DNA from: Clostridia bacterium | Lineage (GTDB): Bacteria; Bacillota_A; Clostridia; Oscillospirales; CAG-272 | DNA length: 11,695 nucleotides | Assembly: GCA_017472105.1 (NCBI GenBank) | Contig: JAFUQY010000397.1 | Span: 1 to 11,695, forward strand | Direction: 5' to 3' | Shown here: piece by piece, positions 1,074 through 10,839 of the stretch | Layout of the letters: every line of letters starts with the position of its first letter | Position numbering within the stretch: position 1 is the first letter of the stretch | Program-made: the position numbers and the translations under genes | Notes under the pieces: model-generated | Seen by the model: only the letters and a program-made list of their open reading frames with translations | Told to the model about the DNA's origin: nothing | Databases searched by the model: none

Positions 1074-2027
1074 TCACAGCCCCAGTTTCTCTTCCATACG
1101 GCATGCCGCACGGTGCATCTGCTCCACGCACATGGCGTCGTACGGTCTGAAATCCGCCGTGTTTCTCGACTTTGCGTACAGCTGCATGGGATTGCCCGCG
1201 ATTTTTGCATGATGATACTTCGCCGTGATCGGGTATGCGAGGGATTCCGTGAACGCCGCGAGACTGAGAAAATCCGCGGCTTCCTCCGCCGTCTCCGGGT
1301 CGTTTGCCCAATTTTCGCACAGCCACACGTACAGCTTCGGATGGAAGTTCGCCATGATGCCGCAGTAACCCGCACTGCCGGATTTCAGGCACGGCAGAAG
1401 CGTCTGGGCGTTGGCGTTGAACAGCAGAAGCTCCGTACCGGCGAGGATTTTCATCCGTCTGCCGATCTCGTCCGCGTCACAGCAAGTGTCCTTGATGAAC
1501 CGGAATCTCTCCGTCGACACCGCCCAGCGGAGCATCTCCGGCGTCAGAAGGCGCTTGTACGGTGACGGGCATTCGTACAGTCCGAGCTTCGTCTCCTCCG
1601 GCAGCTTCGCAATCAGCTTTTCGCAGTCACGGATCCAATTTCCGTCGGATGTGTTCGCGATATCCATGCGGTTGGTGATGAGGATGACGGCGTCCGCTCC
1701 GGTTTCGGCAATGCGGTTCAGCTCCCGCACCTGATCGTCAGACGCGTCGGAGACATGCCCGGATGAAACAATCGTCATTGGTTTCCGGGATTTGTCGGTT
1801 CTCGCCAGAGCATCTGCGGTATTTTTCACGGTACGCGTCAGCTTCACGCGGTCATCCTCGCCGAGGAACCAGATTTCGCTCGACTGACAGGACGCAAAAA
1901 TCCCGCCGCATCCCATACGCCAGTACCATTCGGTCAGAGCCGCGACTCCGCCGTAGTCCACTGTGCCGTCCGTGTTGTAAGGCGTAATCATCGTCGGATA
2001 CGCGCCGCGATTGTAGATCTTTTCCAT
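1074..2027 (-). CDS. DapA/NAL-superfamily class I aldolase or lyase (dihydrodipicolinate synthase family)
   Basis: The 317-residue protein has the length and order of motifs of the DHDPS / N-acetylneuraminate lyase TIM-barrel family, which uses a Schiff-base lysine to add to or cleave pyruvate-type or related ketoacids. Lys179 in FRFIKD is the expected Schiff-base residue, and Tyr151 in LYECPSP corresponds to the tyrosine that precedes it. The usual GTTGE carboxylate-binding loop reads CQSSE at 47-51, so the substrate probably differs from that of true DapA. The ATG at 2027 is preceded by GGAGG six bases upstream. A near-consensus promoter and a strong terminator frame it as a single-gene transcript. 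The divergent gene is a GH127-like protein, which suggests catabolism of a sugar acid or other sugar derivative rather than lysine synthesis; that is inference. Confidence 0.85.
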   Translation of the reverse strand: MEKIYNRGAYPTMITPYNTDGTVDYGGVAALTEWYWRMGCGGIFASCQSSEIWFLGEDDRVKLTRTVKNTADALARTDKSRKPMTIVSSGHVSDASDDQVRELNRIAETGADAVILITNRMDIANTSDGNWIRDCEKLIAKLPEETKLGLYECPSPYKRLLTPEMLRWAVSTERFRFIKDTCCDADEIGRRMKILAGTELLLFNANAQTLLPCLKSGSAGYCGIMANFHPKLYVWLCENWANDPETAEEAADFLSLAAFTESLAYPITAKYHHAKIAGNPMQLYAKSRNTADFRPYDAMCVEQMHRAACRMEEKLGL

Positions 2028-2059
2028 GCCGTGCCTCCGGTAAATTTGTTGTTACTTCG

Positions 2060-2088
2060 GTTATACCACATCCGGGCGGCGTTGTCAA
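2060..2088 (-). promoter_or_regulatory. Promoter of the DapA-like gene
   Basis: On the minus strand, -35 TTGACA (2088-2083) is followed by a 17-base spacer and -10 TATAAC (2065-2060). A TG dinucleotide one base before the -10 box would also make it an extended -10 promoter. The predicted start of transcription is near 2053, giving a short leader with GGAGG before the ATG at 2027. Confidence 0.85.
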
Positions 2089-2101
2089 GCACTTTTTTCT
2101 G

Positions 2102-2130
2102 TTGACAAATCGGTGCGGAAACTATATAAT
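2102..2130 (+). promoter_or_regulatory. Consensus promoter of the GH127-like gene
   Basis: TTGACA (2102-2107), a spacer of exactly 17 bases and TATAAT (2125-2130) form a perfect consensus housekeeping promoter. Transcription should start near 2137, about 20 bases before the ATG at 2157. The -35 box lies only 13 bases from the -35 box of the divergent promoter, so the two polymerase sites overlap. Confidence 0.9.
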
Positions 2131-2156
2131 GAAGAAAAAACACCTGAGGTACAGTT

Positions 2157-3743
2157 ATGGAATTCAAGAAAACCGTCAGCTGCAATACGCACGATCTCGA
2201 TCTCGCCATCCGCGAAGGCATGCGTCCGATGCAGACCTTCTTCGACCCGACGCGGGACAACCTGCCCTTCTTCGGCAACGAAATGGCACCGGACTGCCGA
2301 AATTCCCACCATCCCACGTTCAGTGCGGCACACATTCCCGGACGCTGGCTCTGCGCGCTCCTGCATGCGGAGGAAGTGACCGGCATTCCGGCAGACCCGG
2401 CGGCGGTGGAAAATCTCCGCAGATGGGCGTTTGCGACTCTGGAAAAGCATCCGATCGGGTTCCCGGCGTGCATGGACTTTGACAAAATGGAGTTCATCGA
2501 CGCAACCGACCTGCACAATCTCCGCGAAATCATGCATGCCCTGTTCGCTCTGGTGAAGTGGAGACGGGACGATCATGCACGGGAGCTTGCACTTGGCGTC
2601 ATCCGTGCGTTCAACCGGTATTTCGATTTTGACACCGCGAAGTTTGACGAAGAAGCCTACACCCGCGAGACCGGTGCGAAAGCGATGTACAGCTGCTGTG
2701 CGCCGTCGGAGGGACTTCTCTTCCCGGTTCACTTCGGACGCTACATCGGGCCTCTGGTGAAGTTCTGGCGCGCGTCCGGCGAACCCGAGGCACTGGAGCA
2801 GGCAATCCGTCTCAAGGACACCTGCTTCACCCACATCCTCCTCGAAGACGGGGATTACGACGCTGTCCGCTTCGGCAGTCACACCCACTCCACGACCGCG
2901 ATGATCTCCTCTCTCGCACAGCTCGGCGACGTCACGAACGATCCCGCAGTTTTCCGCCGCATCGACGCATTCTTCAGAAACGGACTGCGGAAAATCGCGC
3001 TCCCGTTCGGCTGGTGCATCGAAGGCAACGGACGCCGCGATATCGTCGGGGAAATCAACAACACCTCCGACATCATGGAAGCGTGCCTCATCATGGGACG
3101 ACACGGGTACGGAGGATACTACGCCATGGCGGAACAGATTCTCCGGGCGCATTTTCTGCCGTCCCAGCTGCTCGATCCCTGCTTTATTCCCGAGGACGAG
3201 GACGAATCCCACGCGGATACCTACCGGATGGCAAGCCGCAGTGTTGGTTCGTTCGGATTCCCGACGCCGTACGGTCACGAGGATCATCCCGGCGCGTGGA
3301 TTTCGTTCAACTGGGACATCGTGGGCGGCGGCGTGAACGGTCTCTGCGAAGCGTACAAGGCATGCTCCGCGTTCGAGGACGGCGTGCTGACAATTCCGCT
3401 TCACTTTGCGGCTGAGCGCGACACACACGTCACGACCGATCCGTACCGCAATGACGGCGTCATGCGTATCACCGCCAAGCAGGACAATCTGTGCATGAAG
3501 ATCCGCATTCCCGCGCGTGCATCGGTGAAATCGGTGAGCGTTCCGTACACATGCGAGGGTGAATGGCTGTATCCCGCTCCCGTGAAGGCAGGCGAAACCG
3601 TTCAGCTCGCGTTTGACTTTGCGGTGCGCGATATCACCTACGACTTCCGCGGCAGACGGATCACGTTCCGCTGGAGAGGCGAAGAGGTAATCGCTGCAAA
3701 CAACGGTGAGAGACGGCTGTGTTACTTCCCGGATCTTGAATAA
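2157..3743 (+). CDS. GH127/DUF1680-like putative glycoside hydrolase
   Basis: The product is 528 residues with no signal peptide, hence cytoplasmic. Residues about 1-400 are helical with conserved-looking aromatic, His and Cys positions (for example YSCCAPSEG, GSHTHSTTAM and WCIEGNG), as expected of an (alpha/alpha)6 six-hairpin barrel. The C-terminal 120 residues look like the beta-sandwich of the GH127/DUF1680 beta-L-arabinofuranosidase-like group: MKIRIPA, then a GEWLYP stretch, then KAGETVQLAFDF and a closing FRWRGEEVIA. I recognise the fold style rather than a specific enzyme; a heptosidase, arabinofuranosidase or unsaturated-sugar hydrolase role are all possible. GAGGT lies six bases before the ATG. 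It shares its control region with the DapA-like gene, pointing to one sugar-degradation function. Confidence 0.6.
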   Translation: MEFKKTVSCNTHDLDLAIREGMRPMQTFFDPTRDNLPFFGNEMAPDCRNSHHPTFSAAHIPGRWLCALLHAEEVTGIPADPAAVENLRRWAFATLEKHPIGFPACMDFDKMEFIDATDLHNLREIMHALFALVKWRRDDHARELALGVIRAFNRYFDFDTAKFDEEAYTRETGAKAMYSCCAPSEGLLFPVHFGRYIGPLVKFWRASGEPEALEQAIRLKDTCFTHILLEDGDYDAVRFGSHTHSTTAMISSLAQLGDVTNDPAVFRRIDAFFRNGLRKIALPFGWCIEGNGRRDIVGEINNTSDIMEACLIMGRHGYGGYYAMAEQILRAHFLPSQLLDPCFIPEDEDESHADTYRMASRSVGSFGFPTPYGHEDHPGAWISFNWDIVGGGVNGLCEAYKACSAFEDGVLTIPLHFAAERDTHVTTDPYRNDGVMRITAKQDNLCMKIRIPARASVKSVSVPYTCEGEWLYPAPVKAGETVQLAFDFAVRDITYDFRGRRITFRWRGEEVIAANNGERRLCYFPDLE

Positions 3744-3789: not shown

Positions 3790-4620
3790 TTACAGAATTT
3801 TCGAGAGGAAATCCTTCAGTCTGGGGTGCTTGGGATTGCCGAAGAATTCTGCCGGCGCCGCTTCCTCGAGGATTTTGCCTTCGTCGATGAAGACCACGCG
3901 GTTGGCAACTTCCTTCGCAAAGCCCATTTCGTGGGTTACGATGACCATCGTCAGGCCTTCGCGTGCCAGCGTCTTCATCAGATCGAGAACCTCGCCGACC
4001 ATTTCGGGGTCAAGTGCGGAGGTGGGCTCGTCGAAGAGGATGACGTCGGGGTTCATCGCCATCGCACGGATGATCGCCACACGCTGCTTCTGACCGCCGG
4101 AGAGCGTGGACGGGTAAACGTCAGCCTTGTCCTCAAGACCGATCCGCTTGAGAAGGCGTTCAGCGTTCGCGCGTGCTTCGGCTCTGATCTTCTGCTTGTC
4201 CGTCGTGATGGGAGTCGGCTCCAGCTTCTTGTCCGCCTTGCGGAAGGTGTTGGTAAACTTCACCCACGCGTTGCGGGACTTCGCTTTCCGCAGATCCTCC
4301 AGACCGATGTGCACGGGTGCGAGCATAATGTTCTGGATGACGGTCTTGTTGTTGAAGAGGTTGAACTGCTGGAACACCATGCCCATTTTGCGGCGGTGTA
4401 CGTTGATGTCGACCTTCATGTCGGCGATGTCCACACCACCGAAGATGATCTGACCGCCGGACGGGTCCTCCATGCAGTTGAGACAGCGCAGGAACGTGCT
4501 CTTGCCGCATCCGGACGGGCCGAGAACGCAGATGATATCGCCCTTGTTCACGGTGATGTCGATGCCCTTGAGCACCTCTTTGTCACCGAAGTTTTTTTGC
4601 AGGTTAATTACGTCGATCAC
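3790..4620 (-). CDS. Polar amino-acid ABC transporter, ATP-binding protein (GlnQ/HisP type)
   Basis: This is the ATPase of the amino-acid importer. Walker A is GPSGCGKST (34-42), the Q-loop glutamine is about 84, the ABC signature LSGGQ is 173-177, Walker B VILFDE ends at Glu198, and the H-loop histidine is 230. The downstream segment [15 protein letters not shown] is typical of the polar amino-acid subfamily. It is 276 residues against roughly 240 for the family; the excess is a basic insertion of about 35 residues at roughly 109-146, between the Q-loop region and the signature. Translation starts at GTG 4620, inside the last 17 bases of the permease gene, so the two are translationally coupled. 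GGAG lies about 11 bases upstream. The substrate cannot be assigned. Confidence 0.93.
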
Positions 4621-5314
4621 TTTTTCTCAGGCTCCTTTCCATCAGCTTGATGAGCAGTGTGATGAGCATTACGAGAGCGATATAAATGATCGCCATGGTC
4701 AGATACGGCACCATGAATTCATAGGAATTGGAGCCGATGTAGTTGAATGCCACGTAAAGGTCCGCCGCGCCGACGAAGGATACAACGGAGGTTTCCTTGA
4801 TGAGCGCGATGAACTCGTTGCCGAGGGTCGGCAGAATATTCTTCACCGCCTGCGGAATGACGATCTTCATCATGGTGGTGCCGAAGGAAAGACCGACAGC
4901 ACGTCCGGCTTCCATCTGACCGCCGTCGACGGAGAGAATACCGCCGCGCATGATTTCGGATATGTATGCACCGCTGTTTAAGCCGAATACCGCGATTGCC
5001 ACGTTGACGCCGGACATGTTCACGCCGATCAGGGGGAGCATGACGTAGTAGAACAGAAGGAGCTGTACTACCATAGGCGTGCCGCGGAAGAAGCCGACAT
5101 AGAAGGTGCAGATGCCGTTGAGGACCTTCGGCAGGGTCTTGTATTTCGGAATCACGCGGACGGTCGCGATCAGGGTACCGATGACGATACCGATAATCAG
5201 ACCGAGCACCGCGATGATGCAGGTATTCTGAAGACCTTCGATGACCTTCACGTACCCGCCCTCATCCACGAGGATCCGGATAAAGTTTGCTAATTTTTTC
5301 TCAAAACTTCCCAT
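4604..5314 (-). CDS. Polar amino-acid ABC transporter, permease (HisM/GlnP type)
   Basis: The inner-membrane subunit has 236 residues from the chosen ATG. Several hydrophobic spans are visible, roughly 30-51, 68-97, 102-122, 175-192 and 204-224. The family signature [16 protein letters not shown] (75-90) and the EAA loop EAGRAVGLS (135-143), which docks on the ATPase, are intact. The frame is open to a GTG at 5335, but that codon directly follows a hairpin. The ATG at 5314 has AAAGGA just upstream and starts at MGSFEKK, so I prefer it. The gene is downstream of the binding-protein gene, separated by about 115 bases that hold the hairpin, and it overlaps the ATPase gene by 17 bases. Confidence 0.92.
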
Positions 5315-5332
5315 TTTGTCCTTTATGCAAAA

Positions 5333-5372
5333 CACGCTGCTCTTCCGTCGGTTGGGTAAACGAAAGAGCAGC
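5333..5372 (-). promoter_or_regulatory. Intercistronic hairpin between binding-protein and permease genes
   Basis: On the minus strand GCTGCTCTT (5372-5364) pairs perfectly with AAGAGCAGC (5344-5336) across a 19-base loop. After three bases (GTG) comes a short TTTT. Such a structure between a binding-protein gene and its permease gene commonly acts as an mRNA-stabilising or partial-termination element that raises expression of the binding protein over the membrane parts. The T-run is short, so full termination is unlikely. Confidence 0.65.
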
Positions 5373-5429: not shown

Positions 5430-6269
5430 TTAGTTTAATTCGTTGAACGCTTCAACAATTGCAGCAGCGGGAGCAGCGTCGATGATAACGTACTTGAGGT
5501 TGCCGTTGATGAGGTCCTGAACTGCGAGAGAGCCGTTCTTGTAGCCTACACATTCAACGGGAAGACCGTTAAAGCCCCAGTCAGCGTCGCCTTCCACGTA
5601 GAACTGGCCGGTGGTGCCGGTCTGTACGCCTACCTTGGTGGTCTTGTCGAGGCCGTTGAGGATTGCTTCAACAGCAGCGCCGTCAGCACATGCGTCGAAG
5701 GTGGTGTCGTCAGCGAGGGTGATGAGCTTCTGGGATGCCTTGTAGTAGGAATCGGTGAAAGAAACGTATTCCTTGCGTTCTTCGTTGATGGTCAGACCTG
5801 CCATAGCGATGTCGCACTTCTGCTGACCGACGGAGAGACATACAGCGTCAAAGTCCATGTTGGAGATAACGAGTTCGAGACCGAGTTCCTGTGCGAGAAG
5901 GGACGCGATTTCCATGTCGATGCCGTAGTAGGATTCGCCCACGGTGTATTCGAAGGGTTCGAAAGCAGCGTTGGTAGCAACTACGAGCTGATCCTTGGAT
6001 TCGTCAAGAGCAGCGGAGGTAACAGCGGTGGGAGTGCCGTCGCCGAAGTACTTGTTGCAGATTTCTTCGAAAGTGCCGTCAGCCATGATCTTTGCGATGA
6101 AAGCGTTGGTCTTTTCGAGAAGTTCGGGCTGGTTCTTATCAACGCCGAATGCGTAGTCTTCCTGGGTGAGTTCGATTTCAACGACCTTCACGCCGGTGGA
6201 GCCGCCGCAGGATGCGAATACGAAAGTCAGCATCAGAGCAGCGAGAGCGAGAGAGATGATCTTTTTCAT
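5430..6269 (-). CDS. Amino-acid ABC transporter substrate-binding lipoprotein, apparently circularly permuted
   Basis: The 279-residue SBP_bac_3-type protein captures an amino acid outside the cell for the downstream permease and ATPase. A lipoprotein signal (MKKII, hydrophobic core, lipobox FASC with Cys21) leads the protein. The core begins at 94 with QLVVATNAAFEPFEY, then GIDMEIA (116-122), AGLTINEERKE with Arg165 (the usual carboxylate binder), TGTTG (217-221) and VIIDAAPA with Asp264. Oddly, residues about 28-76 (ELTQEDYAFGVDKNQPELL then a KADGTF-type helix ending KYFG) are what normally ends this family. The protein stops at 279, just where that segment would follow. ATG 6269 has GGAG eight bases upstream. 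A longer reading from 6326 would start at the -10 box and is rejected. Confidence 0.93.
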   Translation of the reverse strand: MKKIISLALAALMLTFVFASCGGSTGVKVVEIELTQEDYAFGVDKNQPELLEKTNAFIAKIMADGTFEEICNKYFGDGTPTAVTSAALDESKDQLVVATNAAFEPFEYTVGESYYGIDMEIASLLAQELGLELVISNMDFDAVCLSVGQQKCDIAMAGLTINEERKEYVSFTDSYYKASQKLITLADDTTFDACADGAAVEAILNGLDKTTKVGVQTGTTGQFYVEGDADWGFNGLPVECVGYKNGSLAVQDLINGNLKYVIIDAAPAAAIVEAFNELN

Positions 6270-6355: not shown

Positions 6356-6572
6356 GACCTAAAGCTAAAAATTATTCACTGTTTTTGAATGTTTTTTCGC
6401 CTGATTTTGGAAGAAATCTCAATATTCCGCATAAATACAAGCCGGCTATAAGAAAATCCTGTAATACTGTGCCGTTTCAGGTGAAAATCGTCCACAATTC
6501 CGGAAAACGGGATGTATAGAAGAAATGCATGTCGGTTATGCTGTAAACAAATCCAAACCCACGGAGGCAGTC
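6356..6572. other. Upstream part of the divergent gap between transporter operon and tepA-like gene
   Basis: The whole gap from 6270 to 6572 is about 300 bases. Its left part holds the transporter promoter and inverted repeat listed separately. The rest is AT-rich and holds no ORF that looks real. A weak plus-strand promoter candidate is TCCACA (6491-6496), 18 bases, TATAGA (6515-6520), with a TTCCGGAA palindrome (6498-6505) in its spacer. I see no terminator or RNA gene here. Confidence 0.35.
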
Positions 6573-7265
6573 ATGGAAGAAAACAGAAACGAAAAGAACA
6601 CGGAGAAGGACACCCCGGAGAGCATCAGGAGCACCGGAAGCGTCATTTCCTCATCCGGCGAGGAGACGATCCACTGTCTCACCGTCATCGGGCAGATTGA
6701 GGGACACTACGCGCTCGGCGACGGACAGAAGGCAACCAAATACGAGCACCTGATCCCGCTGCTGGTATCCATTGAGGAAAGCCGCGAGATCGACGGGATG
6801 CTCATGGTGCTGAACACAATGGGCGGAGACGTCGAGGCGGGACTGGCACTGGCGGAAATGGTCGCGAGCATGTCCAAACCCACAGTCTCCCTCGTGCTCG
6901 GAGGCGGACATTCCATCGACGTTCCGCTTGCCGTATCGGCGAAAAAATCCTTCATCGTGCCGTCCGCGACCATGACCATTCACCCCGTCCGGATCAGCGG
7001 AACCGTCATCGGCGCACCGCAGTCGTTCTACTACTTCGAGCAGATGCAGGACAGGATCATCCGCTTTGTCACGGAGCATTCCGCCGTCAGTGAAGAGACC
7101 TTCCGCTCGCTCCTCATGAGGACGGATCAGATTGCCACGGACGTCGGCTCGATCGTAGAAGGCACGGAGGCGAAGGAAATCGGGCTCATCGACGAAACGG
7201 GCGGTGTCAGCGATGCCCTTGCCGCACTGCGGACGATGATCCGGGAACACAAAACCTCATATTAA
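6573..7265 (+). CDS. tepA: ClpP-class serine protease homologue, TepA (translocation-enhancing protein) type
   Basis: The 230-residue protein has the ClpP/crotonase fold order. NTMGGDVEAGLALAEM (81-96) is the oxyanion-side motif. Ser114 in GGGHSIDVP is the nucleophile, His137 in ATMTIHPVR is the general base, and Asp190 in IATDVG is the likely third triad residue. IVPSATMTIHP and EAKEIGLIDETGG are the hallmarks by which I recognise TepA/YmfB of Bacillus. There is no signal peptide, but the first 30 residues are charged and low-complexity. The in-frame ATG at 6525 has no ribosome site, whereas ATG 6573 has GGAGG five bases upstream, so 6573 is taken. In Bacillus the gene sits by spoIIIE; here it stands alone. 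The cellular substrate is unclear, as it is for the family. Confidence 0.85.
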   Translation: MEENRNEKNTEKDTPESIRSTGSVISSSGEETIHCLTVIGQIEGHYALGDGQKATKYEHLIPLLVSIEESREIDGMLMVLNTMGGDVEAGLALAEMVASMSKPTVSLVLGGGHSIDVPLAVSAKKSFIVPSATMTIHPVRISGTVIGAPQSFYYFEQMQDRIIRFVTEHSAVSEETFRSLLMRTDQIATDVGSIVEGTEAKEIGLIDETGGVSDALAALRTMIREHKTSY

Positions 7266-7308
7266 TTATGAATTTTTCCCAAATCCACTTTCATTTCCGC
7301 CGCGGCTG

Positions 7309-7317
7309 TGATACAAT
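7309..7317 (+). promoter_or_regulatory. Extended -10 promoter for the fucU-like and AAA+ genes
   Basis: TGATACAAT (7309-7317) is a TGn-extended -10 element with a good TACAAT hexamer, 43 bases before the ATG at 7360. No convincing -35 box lies 16-18 bases upstream, which is usual for extended -10 promoters. There is no clear terminator between the tepA-like gene and this site, so read-through is also possible. Confidence 0.5.
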
Positions 7318-7359
7318 AGAGCTATAAAAATTCTGACAACCACGATTGGAGACAATACC

Positions 7360-7797
7360 ATGCTGAACGGAATTCCGAAAATCATCTCTCCCGAGCTTCT
7401 TATGGTTCTCGACAAAATGGGACACGGCGACGAAATCGTGTTCTCCGACTCCAACTTTCCCGGTGAATCCATCGCGCGATCCTCCGGTGCCGTGATTCTC
7501 CGCGCTGACGGATGCGGTGTACCGGAGCTTCTCCGTGCGGTTCTTCCCCTGTTCCCGCTCGATTCGTACGATGACAACGTGTATCTCATGGACAAAACCG
7601 AATCCGACCGGGATCTTGAGATTCCGATCTGGGAGGAATACAAAGCCATCGCCGCACAGTACACGGATGCGGAGCCGGTGTATCTCGAGCGGTTCGGGTT
7701 CTACGAGCGCGCGAAGAAGGCATACGCCGTTGTTGTGACCGGCGAGAGCGCGATTTATGCGAACGTAATTCTGAAAAAAGGCGTTGTGAAGGAATAA
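7360..7797 (+). CDS. fucU: FucU/RbsD-family sugar mutarotase
   Basis: The 145-residue protein closely resembles E. coli FucU, which interconverts the alpha and beta anomers of L-fucose. It opens with GIPKIISPELL, then MGHGDEIVFSD around 20-30 with the catalytic His of GHGDE, then a LPLFPLDSYD stretch, and ends with FGFYERAKKAYAVVVTGE and ILKKGV. These are FucU rather than RbsD features. Length equals the family norm. GGAG lies eight bases before the ATG. No fucose isomerase, kinase, aldolase or permease is in the window, so the actual sugar is uncertain. The next gene starts after four bases, so both are probably one transcription unit. Confidence 0.88.
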   Translation: MLNGIPKIISPELLMVLDKMGHGDEIVFSDSNFPGESIARSSGAVILRADGCGVPELLRAVLPLFPLDSYDDNVYLMDKTESDRDLEIPIWEEYKAIAAQYTDAEPVYLERFGFYERAKKAYAVVVTGESAIYANVILKKGVVKE

Positions 7798-7801
7798 ACC
7801 G

Positions 7802-8935
7802 ATGGCTGACAAAAAAGACGAAATCATCAACTTACAGCTCGACATCATCCGCAAGATGACGGAGAACAACATCAAGCGGCTCAGCGACGACATCTGGGGT
7901 CCCTCGCGGAATGCCCGGCAGACCGTTTCGAACGCTCAGAAGCCCGCTGTGCCCGTGAAAAACGATGTCCCCGTCACGCCATCCGCTCCTTCCTCCGGGA
8001 ACGCGAAGAAATCCGACGAGGACCTCATCAAAGCCTCCGACGGTGCCGACGTGATCGTGAACGACCCGGATGAGGAAGCGCCGCCGAAGGAAGACATCGC
8101 GGATCTGAAAAAGGAGCTGGACTCCTACATAGGTCTGGACGAAGTGAAAAAAGAGGTGAAGAACCTCATCAATATGGCGACCGTGTACAAGCTCCGTCAG
8201 GACAACAATCTTCCCAATCCCGACATGTCCCTGCATCTGGTGTTCTCCGGCAATCCCGGCACGGGCAAAACCATGATCGCACGGTTCATGGCGCGGGTCT
8301 ATCACTCCCTCGGGCTCCTCTCCGTCGGCAAGCTGATTGAAGTCGACCGCAGCGGCCTCGTCGCGGGATACATCGGTCAGACCGCCATCAAGACCGCGAA
8401 GGTGCTCGAATCCGCAAAGGGCAGCGTGCTCTTCATCGACGAAGCCTACACGCTCACCTCGAAGACTGAGAACGACTTCGGTTTTGAAGCCGTCGACACC
8501 ATCCTCAAGGCAATGGAGGACAACCGGGACGATCTGGTCGTTATCGTGGCAGGCTATATTGATTTAATGGAAGAGTTTATCGACTCCAACCCCGGTCTGC
8601 GTTCGCGCTTCAACAAGTACATCGACTTTGCCGACTACACTGCGGACGAGATGATGGGCATTTTCAAAATGAACTGCGAAAAGAGCTTCTACGTTCTCGA
8701 CACGGATGCCGAAGCCGAAGTGAAGGAATACCTCACCGCTGTTGCTGACGCCGCAGGGGAATTCGGCAATGCGAGAGGCGTGCGCAATACCTTTGAGAAA
8801 ATCCTCACCGAGCAGGCAAACCGCATCGCGGAAATGGACGCCGTCTCCCGGGATGACCTGATGAAGATCACGAAGGATGACGTGACAAAGGCACTGTTCG
8901 AAGACACCGGCGATGGTGTGGAAAACCAAACCTGA
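7802..8935 (+). CDS. AAA+ ATPase of the CbbX / SpoVK type
   Basis: The 377-residue protein has an N-terminal helix (about 5-30), a long Pro/Ser/Lys-rich and acidic linker (33-100) and one CbbX-like AAA+ module. Walker A is GNPGTGKT (150-157), the likely pore loop is GLVAGYIGQT (185-194) and Walker B is VLFIDEAY (209-216). Arginine fingers lie in NPGLRSRF (263-270) and the sensor-2 arginine is in GNARGVRN (322-329). Relatives are SpoVK of spore-formers, the Rubisco activase CbbX and EccA of type VII secretion, all hexameric remodelling motors. The ribosome site AAGGA overlaps the end of the fucU-like gene. No Rubisco, ESX or spore gene is nearby, so the client is unknown. The last codons, encoding GVENQT, are made by the first unit of a palindromic repeat array. 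Confidence 0.88.
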   Translation: MADKKDEIINLQLDIIRKMTENNIKRLSDDIWGPSRNARQTVSNAQKPAVPVKNDVPVTPSAPSSGNAKKSDEDLIKASDGADVIVNDPDEEAPPKEDIADLKKELDSYIGLDEVKKEVKNLINMATVYKLRQDNNLPNPDMSLHLVFSGNPGTGKTMIARFMARVYHSLGLLSVGKLIEVDRSGLVAGYIGQTAIKTAKVLESAKGSVLFIDEAYTLTSKTENDFGFEAVDTILKAMEDNRDDLVVIVAGYIDLMEEFIDSNPGLRSRFNKYIDFADYTADEMMGIFKMNCEKSFYVLDTDAEAEVKEYLTAVADAAGEFGNARGVRNTFEKILTEQANRIAEMDAVSRDDLMKITKDDVTKALFEDTGDGVENQT

Positions 8936-9067
8936 ATGGTTTGGAAAACCAAATCTGAGGTTGGGAAAACCCAACCATGAATGGTTGGGAAAATCAAACC
9001 TTAAGTTTGGAAAATCAAACCTCAATGGTTGGGAAAAGCAAACCTCGATGGTTGGGAAAAGCAAACC
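8915..9067 (+). repeat. Array of seven palindromic tandem repeats overlapping the AAA+ gene's 3' end
   Basis: Seven units start at about 8915, 8938, 8959, 8983, 9004, 9027 and 9050, so the period varies from 21 to 24. Each is a 17-18 base palindrome of the form GGTTTGG-AAAA-CCAAACC separated by 3-6 base spacers, usually tgaat, tcaat or tcgat. Unit 3 (GGTTGGG-AAAA-CCCAACC) is a perfect 7-bp stem. Units 2 and 1 have one mismatch each. Units 4, 6 and 7 carry TC or GC in place of CC and pair less well. Unit 1 is in the coding sequence of the ATPase, and the TGA stop lies in the first spacer. The transcript would carry several AAAA-loop hairpins in a row. Function unknown. Confidence 0.9.
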
Positions 9068-9072
9068 CTAAT

Positions 9073-9105
9073 AACATATATAATAACTTATATAATAACT
9101 ATAAT
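9073..9105 (+). repeat. AT-rich direct repeats before cdd
   Basis: Directly after the palindromic array come two copies of a TATATAATAACT-type 12-mer and a third, shorter TATAATAA copy. They contain TATAAT at 9079-9084, 9091-9096 and 9100-9105. Any could be a -10 element, but none has a recognisable -35 box 16-18 bases upstream. The last copy runs into the ribosome site AAAGGAGG (9107-9114) of cdd. Confidence 0.7.
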
Positions 9106-9122
9106 AAAAGGAGGAGAAAGAA

Positions 9123-9560
9123 ATGGACAGCCGAACGCTTCTTGACGCCGCGATCTCTGCCATGCAGTCCGCGTATGCACCGTACTCGCACTTTCAAGTG
9201 GGAGCCGCACTTCTGACACAGTCGGGCGAGGTCTATACGGGATGCAATATCGAGAACGCCGCCTATTCCTGCACCGTGTGCGCCGAGCGGACTGCGTTTT
9301 TCACAGCCGTGCGCGACGGTCACCGGAAGTTTTCGAAAATCGCCGTTGTCGGAGGCATGAACGGTGTGCTCTCGTCCTTCACGTACCCGTGCGGTGTCTG
9401 CCGTCAGGTGATGCGTGAGTTCTGCGACGACGATTTCACCCTCATCTTCACCGACGGCACAGCCGTACAGGAGCTGAAGCTGAGCGATCTTCTGCCGTAC
9501 TCCTTCTCCCCGGCAAATCTGAACGAACCGCACGGAGGATCAGCACATGAGAATGTTTGA
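9123..9560 (+). CDS. cdd: Cytidine deaminase
   Basis: The enzyme deaminates cytidine and deoxycytidine to uridine and deoxyuridine. The 145-residue length fits the small tetrameric, one-zinc form. Zinc ligands Cys53, Cys90 and Cys93 and the proton-shuttle Glu55 are seen in TVCAERTA and PCGVCRQ. NIENAAY (42-48) and the N-terminal YAPYSHFQVGAAL are family hallmarks. The ATG follows a strong AAAGGAGG site by eight bases. It overlaps the phosphorylase gene by 14 bases, so its product can pass straight to that enzyme. The C-terminal tail of about 15 residues beyond the core is poorly conserved in type and includes the overlap region. Confidence 0.97.
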   Translation: MDSRTLLDAAISAMQSAYAPYSHFQVGAALLTQSGEVYTGCNIENAAYSCTVCAERTAFFTAVRDGHRKFSKIAVVGGMNGVLSSFTYPCGVCRQVMREFCDDDFTLIFTDGTAVQELKLSDLLPYSFSPANLNEPHGGSAHENV

Positions 9561-10839
9561 CGTAATCGGGAAAAAGAAACGCGGACTTGCCCTCTCGGAG
9601 GAAGAAATCGCGTTCTTTGTCGAAGGCTACACATCGGGCGAAATCCCGGATTATCAAGCGTCGGCGCTCTGCATGGCGATCTGCTTCAACGGGATGAGCC
9701 CGGACGAATGCGCTTCCCTGACCCGGCACATGATGCACTCCGGGGACGTCATCGACCTTTCGCACTTCCCGTACACAGCGGACAAGCACTCCACGGGCGG
9801 CGTCGGTGACAAAACCTCCCTCATCATCACACCGACAGCGGCAGTGCTCGGTCTGAGCGTGGCGAAAATGTCGGGACGCGGACTCGGACACACCGGCGGC
9901 ACCATCGACAAGCTCGAATCCATCCCCGGATTTCAGACGACCCTCTCGCCCGAGCGCTTCATGCGTCAGGTGAATGAGATCGGCGCGGCACTGATCGGAC
10001 AGAGCGGCAACCTCGCACCGGCGGACAAAAAGCTCTACGCCCTGCGCGACGTGACCGCCACCGTGGATTCCATCCCGCTCATCGCGTCGTCGATCATGTC
10101 GAAAAAGCTCGCGGCAGGAGCGCACACCATCGTCCTCGACGTAAAATACGGCAGCGGCGCATTCATGAAGACCCCTGACGACGCCGTGACGCTCGCCGAA
10201 ACCATGGTAAAACTCGGCAAAGCCAACGGACGGAACACAGCCGCCCTGATTACGTCCATGGAAACACCGCTCGGCGAATACGTCGGCAACTCCGTGGAGG
10301 TCATGGAGGCATACCACGTTCTCTGCGGCAGGGTTCACGGGGATTTGTACGACGTCTCCTCGGCTCTGTGCACGAACATGGTGTCTCTCGCGAAGGGAAT
10401 CCCATACGACGACGCGCTCACGCAGGTGAAGGACGCCATCGACTCCGGTGCGGCACGGCAGAAAATGCTCGACTGGATATCCGCACAGGGAGGCGACACC
10501 GCATACCTCACCGAAGAGCGGTTTGCAGTCGGAAAACACCGCCGCGAAATCACAGCGGAGCACGACGGATGGCTTTCCACGGACTCCGAAGGCATCGGAC
10601 GGGCGGCATGTCTGCTCGGAGCGGGACGCCTGACCAAGGATGACACTCCCGATCTGAGTGCCGGAATCCGCCTGTGTGCCAAGCGCGGCGACAGAATCCG
10701 GCAGGGCGACATTCTCGGCGTGCTGTACACATCGGATGAAAGCAAGCTCGAGAGCGGTGCGCGGGAATTCATCGCATCCATGCACATCACGGACGAGAAA
10801 CCCGCCGACATGCCGCTGATTTACAGGACAGTTTATTAA
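9547..10839 (+). CDS. pdp: Pyrimidine-nucleoside phosphorylase (thymidine phosphorylase family)
   Basis: The enzyme cleaves uridine, deoxyuridine or thymidine with phosphate to the base and (deoxy)ribose 1-phosphate. The 430 residues are the usual length. KHSTGGVGDKTS (80-91) binds phosphate and the family signature MSGRGLGHTGGTIDKLE lies at 108-124. His81, Arg167 and Lys186 correspond to E. coli thymidine phosphorylase His85, Arg171 and Lys190. The shorter Gram-positive form accepts both uridine and thymidine, hence the pdp name rather than deoA; that is inference. GGAGG (9534-9538), inside the cdd coding region, lies eight bases before the ATG, which favours coupled translation. No clear terminator follows. 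Confidence 0.95.
   Translation: MRMFDVIGKKKRGLALSEEEIAFFVEGYTSGEIPDYQASALCMAICFNGMSPDECASLTRHMMHSGDVIDLSHFPYTADKHSTGGVGDKTSLIITPTAAVLGLSVAKMSGRGLGHTGGTIDKLESIPGFQTTLSPERFMRQVNEIGAALIGQSGNLAPADKKLYALRDVTATVDSIPLIASSIMSKKLAAGAHTIVLDVKYGSGAFMKTPDDAVTLAETMVKLGKANGRNTAALITSMETPLGEYVGNSVEVMEAYHVLCGRVHGDLYDVSSALCTNMVSLAKGIPYDDALTQVKDAIDSGAARQKMLDWISAQGGDTAYLTEERFAVGKHRREITAEHDGWLSTDSEGIGRAACLLGAGRLTKDDTPDLSAGIRLCAKRGDRIRQGDILGVLYTSDESKLESGAREFIASMHITDEKPADMPLIYRTVY

Follow-up and report, generated by a model that had tools for sequence, protein, structure and literature searches.

We report that a gene in the 11,695-nucleotide stretch of Clostridia bacterium DNA analysed here (contig JAFUQY010000397.1; the window) encodes a circularly permuted SBP_bac_3 substrate-binding protein (SBP), neither truncated nor duplicated. 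Its product is very probably a lipoprotein of a polar-amino-acid ABC importer that has its termini in lobe 2, arose by tandem duplication, fusion and loss, and still forms a Venus flytrap. The SBP_bac_3 family supplies textbook examples of transport proteins and scaffolds for biosensors, and is depicted with a single chain order. An earlier note on this DNA had proposed the permutation; the window gene is no single curiosity, as proteins of this family seem to have been permuted several times independently.

Results

Chain order of the window protein

The gene lies on the minus strand, which corrects the earlier note, and runs in one uninterrupted frame from an ATG at 6269 to a stop codon at 5430-5432 (Table 1). 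PF00497 matches its 279-residue product with 109.6 bits (cut-off 26.4; E = 1.2e-31, Pfam) in two stretches, the family tail lying in front of the body, and the Pfam matches at E up to 1 were solely PF00497, PF10613 and LPAM_1. None of the NCBIfam models reached its cut-off on this protein or on those of loci L112, L115, L140 and L085, and no Rfam match was found in the window at gathering scores. Read from the N-terminus, the order is a lipoprotein signal with Cys21, the residues that normally end the family, a 12-residue linker, the usual family start (QLVVATNAAFEPFEY) and the last lobe-2 helix, whereas the canonical SBP_bac_3 chain runs from lobe 1 through lobe 2 and back to lobe 1.

When compared with solved structures by phmmer, window residues 94-273 corresponded to residues 11-176 of 4zv1, an ancestral Arg/Gln-binding protein, and window residues 23-77 to its residues 179-233, tiling the 4zv1 chain in swapped order with a gap of 2 residues. 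GlnBP (8hnj) concurs, with window residues 18-77 equivalent to its residues 161-220 (tail) and 95-208 to 2-116 (head). In a mapping profile built from 27 canonical SBPs, positions 31-200 match residues 89-274, and positions 203-254, the profile end, match residues 26-76, in keeping with the earlier claim that the closing segment of the family follows the lipobox. The relocated segment comprises the canonical C-terminal ~52 residues (GlnBP ~170-222), directly behind the lipobox and before the canonical N-terminus, and nothing of note is lost or doubled relative to a canonical SBP. In E. coli GlnBP numbering the cut is at 167/170 (type A). Put together, the two parts make up the GlnBP chain with a discrepancy of about 3 residues at most, so the chain is permuted, as first proposed, and not truncated or duplicated. 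Neither of the two outcomes set beforehand as contradicting this reading was observed: the tail does align to the profile end, and the modelled protein has no extra closing segment, its C-terminus being the last lobe-2 helix (residues 265-278) with nothing further.

In the accessible part of PMC13229503, the large domain of GlnBP comprises residues 5-84 and 186-224 and the small domain residues 90-180. The cut therefore falls in the small domain, lobe 2, and the anchor would therefore shift from lobe 1 to lobe 2. That the lipid anchor joins the fold at a different point, as the earlier note held, is thus borne out, whereas the cut, placed there near the hinge, belongs inside lobe 2.

Table 1 Features of the permuted gene and its operon (window positions).
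Feature	Position	Strand	Remarks
Permuted SBP_bac_3 substrate-binding lipoprotein gene (predicted)	5430..6269	minus	279 aa + stop
Signal peptide ending in lipobox (residues 1-21, Cys21)	6207..6269	minus	from sequence; Cys21 invariant in alignments A1 and A3
Relocated canonical C-terminal segment (residues 25-78; GlnBP about 170-223)	6036..6197	minus	last lobe-2 strand, hinge 2, lobe-1 C-terminal helices
Linker, old C-terminus to old N-terminus (residues 77-88)	6006..6041	minus	
Lobe 1, canonical N-terminal part (residues 94 to about 174)	5748..5990	minus	
Hinge 1 and lobe 2 to new C-terminus (residues 175-279)	5433..5747	minus	
Amino-acid ABC permease (PF00528, TIGR01726)	4604..5335	minus	directly downstream of the SBP gene
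ABC ATPase (PF00005; best NCBIfam match GlnQ, under cut-off)	3790..4620	minus	directly downstream

Predicted structure and ligand site

The AlphaFold model obtained from a 66-row alignment has a pLDDT of 90.1 and a pTM of 0.77, an earlier model from 38 close rows being weaker (79.5 and 0.72). Mean pLDDT is 86-98 over the residue blocks of 31-80 and 75 for block 21-30. Both hinge strands are present in the model (37-44; 176-178 with 180-185), and Cys21 is tethered to the last lobe-2 strand (residues 27-30), with hinge 2 (about 36-40) following a few residues later. For the predicted packing of the relocated tail we rely on the confidence of this model. Foldseek and VIA align mainly the body, because both follow chain order: VIA rows start at model residue ~88, a few already at 45-48, end at 276-279, and pair this stretch with the fronts of canonical chains, whose tails stay unpaired, as with 1wdn (paired over 4-172 of 223) and 4zv1 (7-182 of 226), and the rows beginning at 45-48 carry no weight as tail evidence.

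The predicted equivalents of the ligand site are N100, F103, F140, G158, T160 and R165 in lobe 1 and Q216, T220, I263 and D264 in lobe 2. R165 and D264 correspond to R75 and D157 of GlnBP, which we take to be ligand-binding sites; both are invariant in the 66-row alignment (A3), and their equivalents are kept in all 10 other permuted proteins checked. Altogether the window protein keeps 6 of 10 GlnBP ligand sites, differing at D10 (N), K115 (Q), G119 (T) and H156 (I), and the canonical protein of L117 shows the identical four differences. Ligand sites other than R75 and D157 vary among permuted proteins, and in the fused protein of L143 most differ. The window protein probably binds an amino acid and takes part in its transport.

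Conservation and operon context

A homologue search listed 120 proteins, including the window's own, at 73 % identity or more. The permuted order was common to all 38 aligned rows (the window protein and 37 of the other 119 listed), in which mean column identity was 80 %, and Cys21 was invariant in alignments of 38, 67 and 66 rows. We then took the best 80 of 338 confirmed matches in a genome scan as the type A locus set (78 different sequences). Every one of the 80 loci has the permuted order (a cruder classification rule gave 76 permuted and 4 'other') and 73 have the lipobox pattern. By their record titles, most of these loci belong to metagenome assemblies, with animal guts a frequent source; among them is a single named isolate, Acetivibrio mesophilus N2K1 (L067), which is also permuted. 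Agreement on this scale is neither chance nor a product of assembly.

As to whether permuted homologues always sit beside a permease and an ATPase, they mostly do, both genes being found downstream in 72 of the 80 loci. Of the other 8 loci, 5 are no more than 2.5 kb from the end of their contig; a permease is present in 3 of these and neither gene in 2. The remaining 3 have an ATPase ~710 nt downstream, which leaves room for a permease missed by the rule used. In the window, the adjacent permease scores 75.1 bits against TIGR01726 (cut-off 42.2) and the ATPase 286.3 against the GlnQ model, below the equivalog cut-off of 379, an arrangement that identifies a polar amino acid ABC importer operon with a GlnQ-like ATPase. 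Taken together, conservation, operon and AlphaFold model fit a working protein.

With 276 aa, the ATPase of this operon exceeds the GlnQ model (240) by about 36 residues, seemingly through an insertion at window positions of about 4195-4311 (minus strand), between two matched stretches (the second, residues 143-275, matching model positions 107-239); a 276-aa ATPase is also found in three type A loci. Elsewhere in the window, two plus-strand ORFs of 528 and 336 aa (2157-3743 and 26-1036) have no Pfam match at E 0.001, and the neighbours at 1074-2027 and 6525-10839 look ordinary (a DHDPS-family enzyme, a Clp-protease-family protein, RbsD/FucU, an AAA ATPase, a cytidine deaminase and a pyrimidine nucleoside phosphorylase).

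A close canonical relative of the window protein was not found among the best 120 matches of a de-permuted query, a search which scored the 7998 candidates with most shared words. In a single alignment these matches (29 of the 120 were new identifiers) spanned just 72-74 % of the query, as permuted proteins would.

Permuted binding proteins elsewhere in the phylum

We searched 398 genomes of the phylum to which G001 belongs with a profile of the junction (old tail, linker and old head); the resulting counts are lower bounds. Among the matches listed, stand-alone permuted genes scored at least 182.7 bits and head-only matches at most 128.6, fused permuted proteins overlapping the head-only range (164.0 in G403, 130.4 and 118.5 in G140, 119.5 in G049). 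At least 12 stand-alone permuted genes were found in at least 12 of the 398 genomes, of four kinds by cut site in GlnBP numbering: type A at 167/170 (G001, G228), type B at 96/97 (G252, G086), type C at 127/130 (G102, G241, G289) and type D at 108/109 (G103, G192, G017, G137, G217). In relatives, for example at G002:C357 and G003:C16, a six-frame search placed PF00497 positions 97-131 upstream of 1-110 within one gene.

Permuted domains also occur in longer chains. A permuted domain is fused ahead of a permease in L143, L251 and L167, with L252 and L255, of like length, as candidates by length; L150 has permuted domains paired in tandem with a permease; L253 joins a permuted domain, permease and ATPase in 916 residues; and L348, L354 and L357 join two permuted domains, permease and ATPase in 1134-1154 residues. 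Whole importers thus lie in single chains of 916-1154 aa (L348:1333-4734, L354:766-4227, L357:2775-6197, L253:1112-3859). In a plasmid collection 25 records matched the junction query, 24 of them over 40-55 % and one over 80 %, the latter annotated as a substrate-binding protein/permease of Enterococcus faecalis.

At the level of the clostridial order of G003 (genome of L007, an Oscillospiraceae record), we surveyed 295 genomes with two junction profiles and fetched loci, and found at least 76 permuted genes in at least 61 genomes. The cuts cluster at a few sites, lying at profile positions 129-136 in 27 genes, 142-144 in 8, 154 in 1 and 186-209 in 40; every one of the 76 opens lobe 2, and lobe 1 is never cut. 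Profile A4 is biased towards cuts at HMM positions 125-203, and the shorter profile A5, which needs about 204-255 and 31-66, would allow cuts at 66-128; it added at least 9 permuted genes, all with lobe-2 cuts. The reach of both profiles ends at cuts inside 31-66 or 204-255, and all sampled search centres come from one phylum. Three of the 76 genes encode more than 450 aa, and a lipobox-like motif is present in 70 of the other 73. Among the first 65, a permease comes next in 60, 3 are long fusions with an ATPase next and the other 2 are situated where the fetched sequence ends.

The 76 leave out ten unfetched long-frame rows (748-1224 aa, 7 genomes) and one unfetched G611 row, the canonical tandems L318 and L321, the double permuted L348, L354 and L357, L190 and L370 (truncated at contig ends) and L352 (resembling type A, carrying an insertion and matched in three stretches). 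A candidate lobe-1 cut in L257 (422 aa, GGDEF) was dropped, as its frame, followed upstream, enters the beginning of a first SBP domain, which makes it a truncated tandem; the locus (1943-3340) holds an SBP tandem whose truncated second copy is joined to GGDEF, possibly a decaying sensor. Likewise, L142, taken at first to hold a duplicated stretch (HMM 99-141), is by eye a type D protein with a longer called start. Permuted genes lie side by side in L325 (2485-4261; types A and D) and in L368 (1930-3800; two of type B), and such pairs are possible material for further rearrangement.

Position of the membrane anchor

In the placed permuted genes the new N-terminus and with it the anchor are located in lobe 2 or immediately behind hinge 1, versus lobe 1 in canonical lipoproteins. 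The tether from Cys to domain has a median of 8 residues in type A (73 loci) and the canonical tether to the first strand a median of 16 (98 of 125 proteins with a lipobox), measured to a different landmark. It is possible, at somewhat less than even probability, that anchored type II amino-acid SBPs of Clostridia have been repeatedly permuted, each time opening lobe 2 and closing lobe 1, because an anchor on lobe 2 or the hinge changes or improves opening, docking on the permease or the handover of ligand to it, with tandem SBP duplication feeding the process.

Neutral origin is a serious rival to anchoring as the driver. A rearrangement without effect, spreading by drift from tandem copies, is in our judgement about as probable as the anchoring explanation, and would agree with the several cut sites tolerated and with the unchanged operons and ligand Arg and Asp. 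Against drift stand the restriction of all 76 listed cuts to lobe 2, even with a profile permitting 66-128, and the conservation of type A over many genomes.

Apparent separate origins

For a tree of permuted and canonical proteins, permuted chains were restored to canonical order and near-copies thinned, giving 109 rows, 17 of them permuted; eight far canonical rows and all but one of the permease-fused permuted rows were omitted. This tree has 6 changes between canonical and permuted order, 6 also being the 5-95 % range of 200 bootstrap trees, and a single permuted clade is rejected (cost 507 log-likelihood units, AU p = 6.4e-38). A quick 147-row tree including fused rows has 7 changes, of which starred branches force at least 5, and a 201-row tree has 14, with at least 7 of them forced. 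The changes may be gains or losses; we take canonical order to be ancestral, as its spread suggests. Judging from these sequences, permutation in SBP_bac_3 appears to be recurrent, with several independent events.

The type A stem is long (1.03, 109-row tree). In the 201-row tree, six type D rows are nested in the window's 34-row clade (support 100; nested forks 86-94), which implies that the position of the cut can also shift inside a lineage already permuted. In the 109- and 147-row trees the five type D genes of the 398-genome search instead group with canonical L208, L278, L279 and L280.

Origin of the permuted gene

The most likely route for the window gene, as we reconstruct it, is duplication, fusion and loss. 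An SBP gene would have been duplicated in tandem and its two copies fused one behind the other, with loss of the outer portions (the front of copy 1 and the tail of copy 2), leaving the tail of copy 1, a linker and the body of copy 2 beneath the first signal peptide. The Venus flytrap would have been kept, with lobe 1 now continuous, both hinge strands predicted and R165 and D264 retained, and the visible change would be a short tether that ties the lipid anchor to lobe 2 instead of lobe 1.

Arrangements resembling such stages exist. L189 has two neighbouring SBP genes ahead of one permease and ATPase; L168/L188 encode a fused SBD-SBD protein with no further Pfam domain at E 1e-8; and L116, L318 and L321 encode SBD-SBD proteins of 727-763 aa, whose length leads one to expect a permease part. 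In the 109-row tree L168 and permuted L085 are sisters (97/89). In the 201-row tree L168 is sister of an 11-row permuted clade that includes L085 (86), and permuted L334 branches outside both (94), so that the change around L168 may have gone in either direction. In the same tree L318 and L321 group with permuted L332 (94). An intermediate of type A's own was not seen among the loci examined.

Alternatively, another SBP gene could have supplied the tail, with loss of the original one, which we consider improbable. The nearest canonical sequences of the type A tail (L122, L139, L137) do differ from those of the body (L117, L178), as a chimera would predict; the tail is unplaceable because its ~52 residues are too short. 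In types B, C and D and in L085, in contrast, the top canonical matches of the two halves overlap, and fused pairs of the same family exist, as duplication, fusion and loss would require. Still less probable, to the point of being very doubtful, is a domain-swapped oligomer in which a molecule lends its N-terminal segment to lobe 1 of its neighbour. The short internal linker (12-14 residues in the 80 type A loci) would suit a swap, which is compatible with the monomer model; that model is, however, confident as a monomer, and the old N- and C-terminal parts of GlnBP share one lobe according to the accessible part of PMC13229503. An assembly or gene-calling artefact, or a decaying gene, has a negligible probability: most sequences do come from metagenome assemblies, but the order recurs in independent data sets, with intact frames and conserved lipobox and ligand residues, and in the isolate A. 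mesophilus N2K1's own genome.

Discussion

The window protein resembles GlnH/GlnBP of E. coli and other type II SBP_bac_3 proteins in sequence family, two lobes, two hinge strands, the ligand Arg and Asp, and an operon with permease and ATPase; it differs in having the canonical tail first, an anchor on lobe 2 and a lobe-2 helix as new C-terminus. In the GlnPQ SBD1-SBD2 tandem of Lactococcus lactis (6h30) the junction of tail, linker and body occurs internally (query 38-192 equals chain 186-336), between two complete canonical domains, whereas the permuted protein retains the middle only. Three alignments, from the best 60 of 83 solved-structure sequence matches, show 6h30, 4zv1 and 8hnj all in canonical order.

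Natural permutation has, as far as the accessible part of PMC4990184 goes, already been published for a type I SBP, TpMglB-2 (Tp0684) of Treponema pallidum, likewise a naturally permuted, anchored binding protein of an ABC importer. In that part of the article, strands near the canonical N-terminus sit near the C-terminus, homologues occur in Gram-positives, and the authors raise anchoring as a possible reason for the permutation and consider tail capture for their own protein. TpMglB-2 belongs to a type I sugar-binding fold and another family ('Type Ic/Cluster Bc'), described there as one family and not as repeated events; the window protein shares the permuted chain and a membrane anchor, predicted from its lipobox, and lies outside that sugar-binding family. 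Among the full-text matches listed, from a collection covering few subscription journals, none was seen to describe a naturally permuted type II amino-acid SBP, and the main texts of two articles on permutation detection (PMC12667903, PMC13133429) contain none of the transport or binding-protein terms searched for.

The sample shows plausible stages of the process, from neighbouring copies and fused pairs to permuted single domains and permuted domains fused to permease and ATPase. This makes it testable how circular permutations arise and whether the point at which a binding protein is attached to the membrane matters for import, and it offers natural permutants for sensor design. It is also a warning that Pfam and NCBIfam matches alone pass permuted genes as ordinary. 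If the anchoring explanation is true, permutation would be a regular evolutionary move in the type II SBP family.
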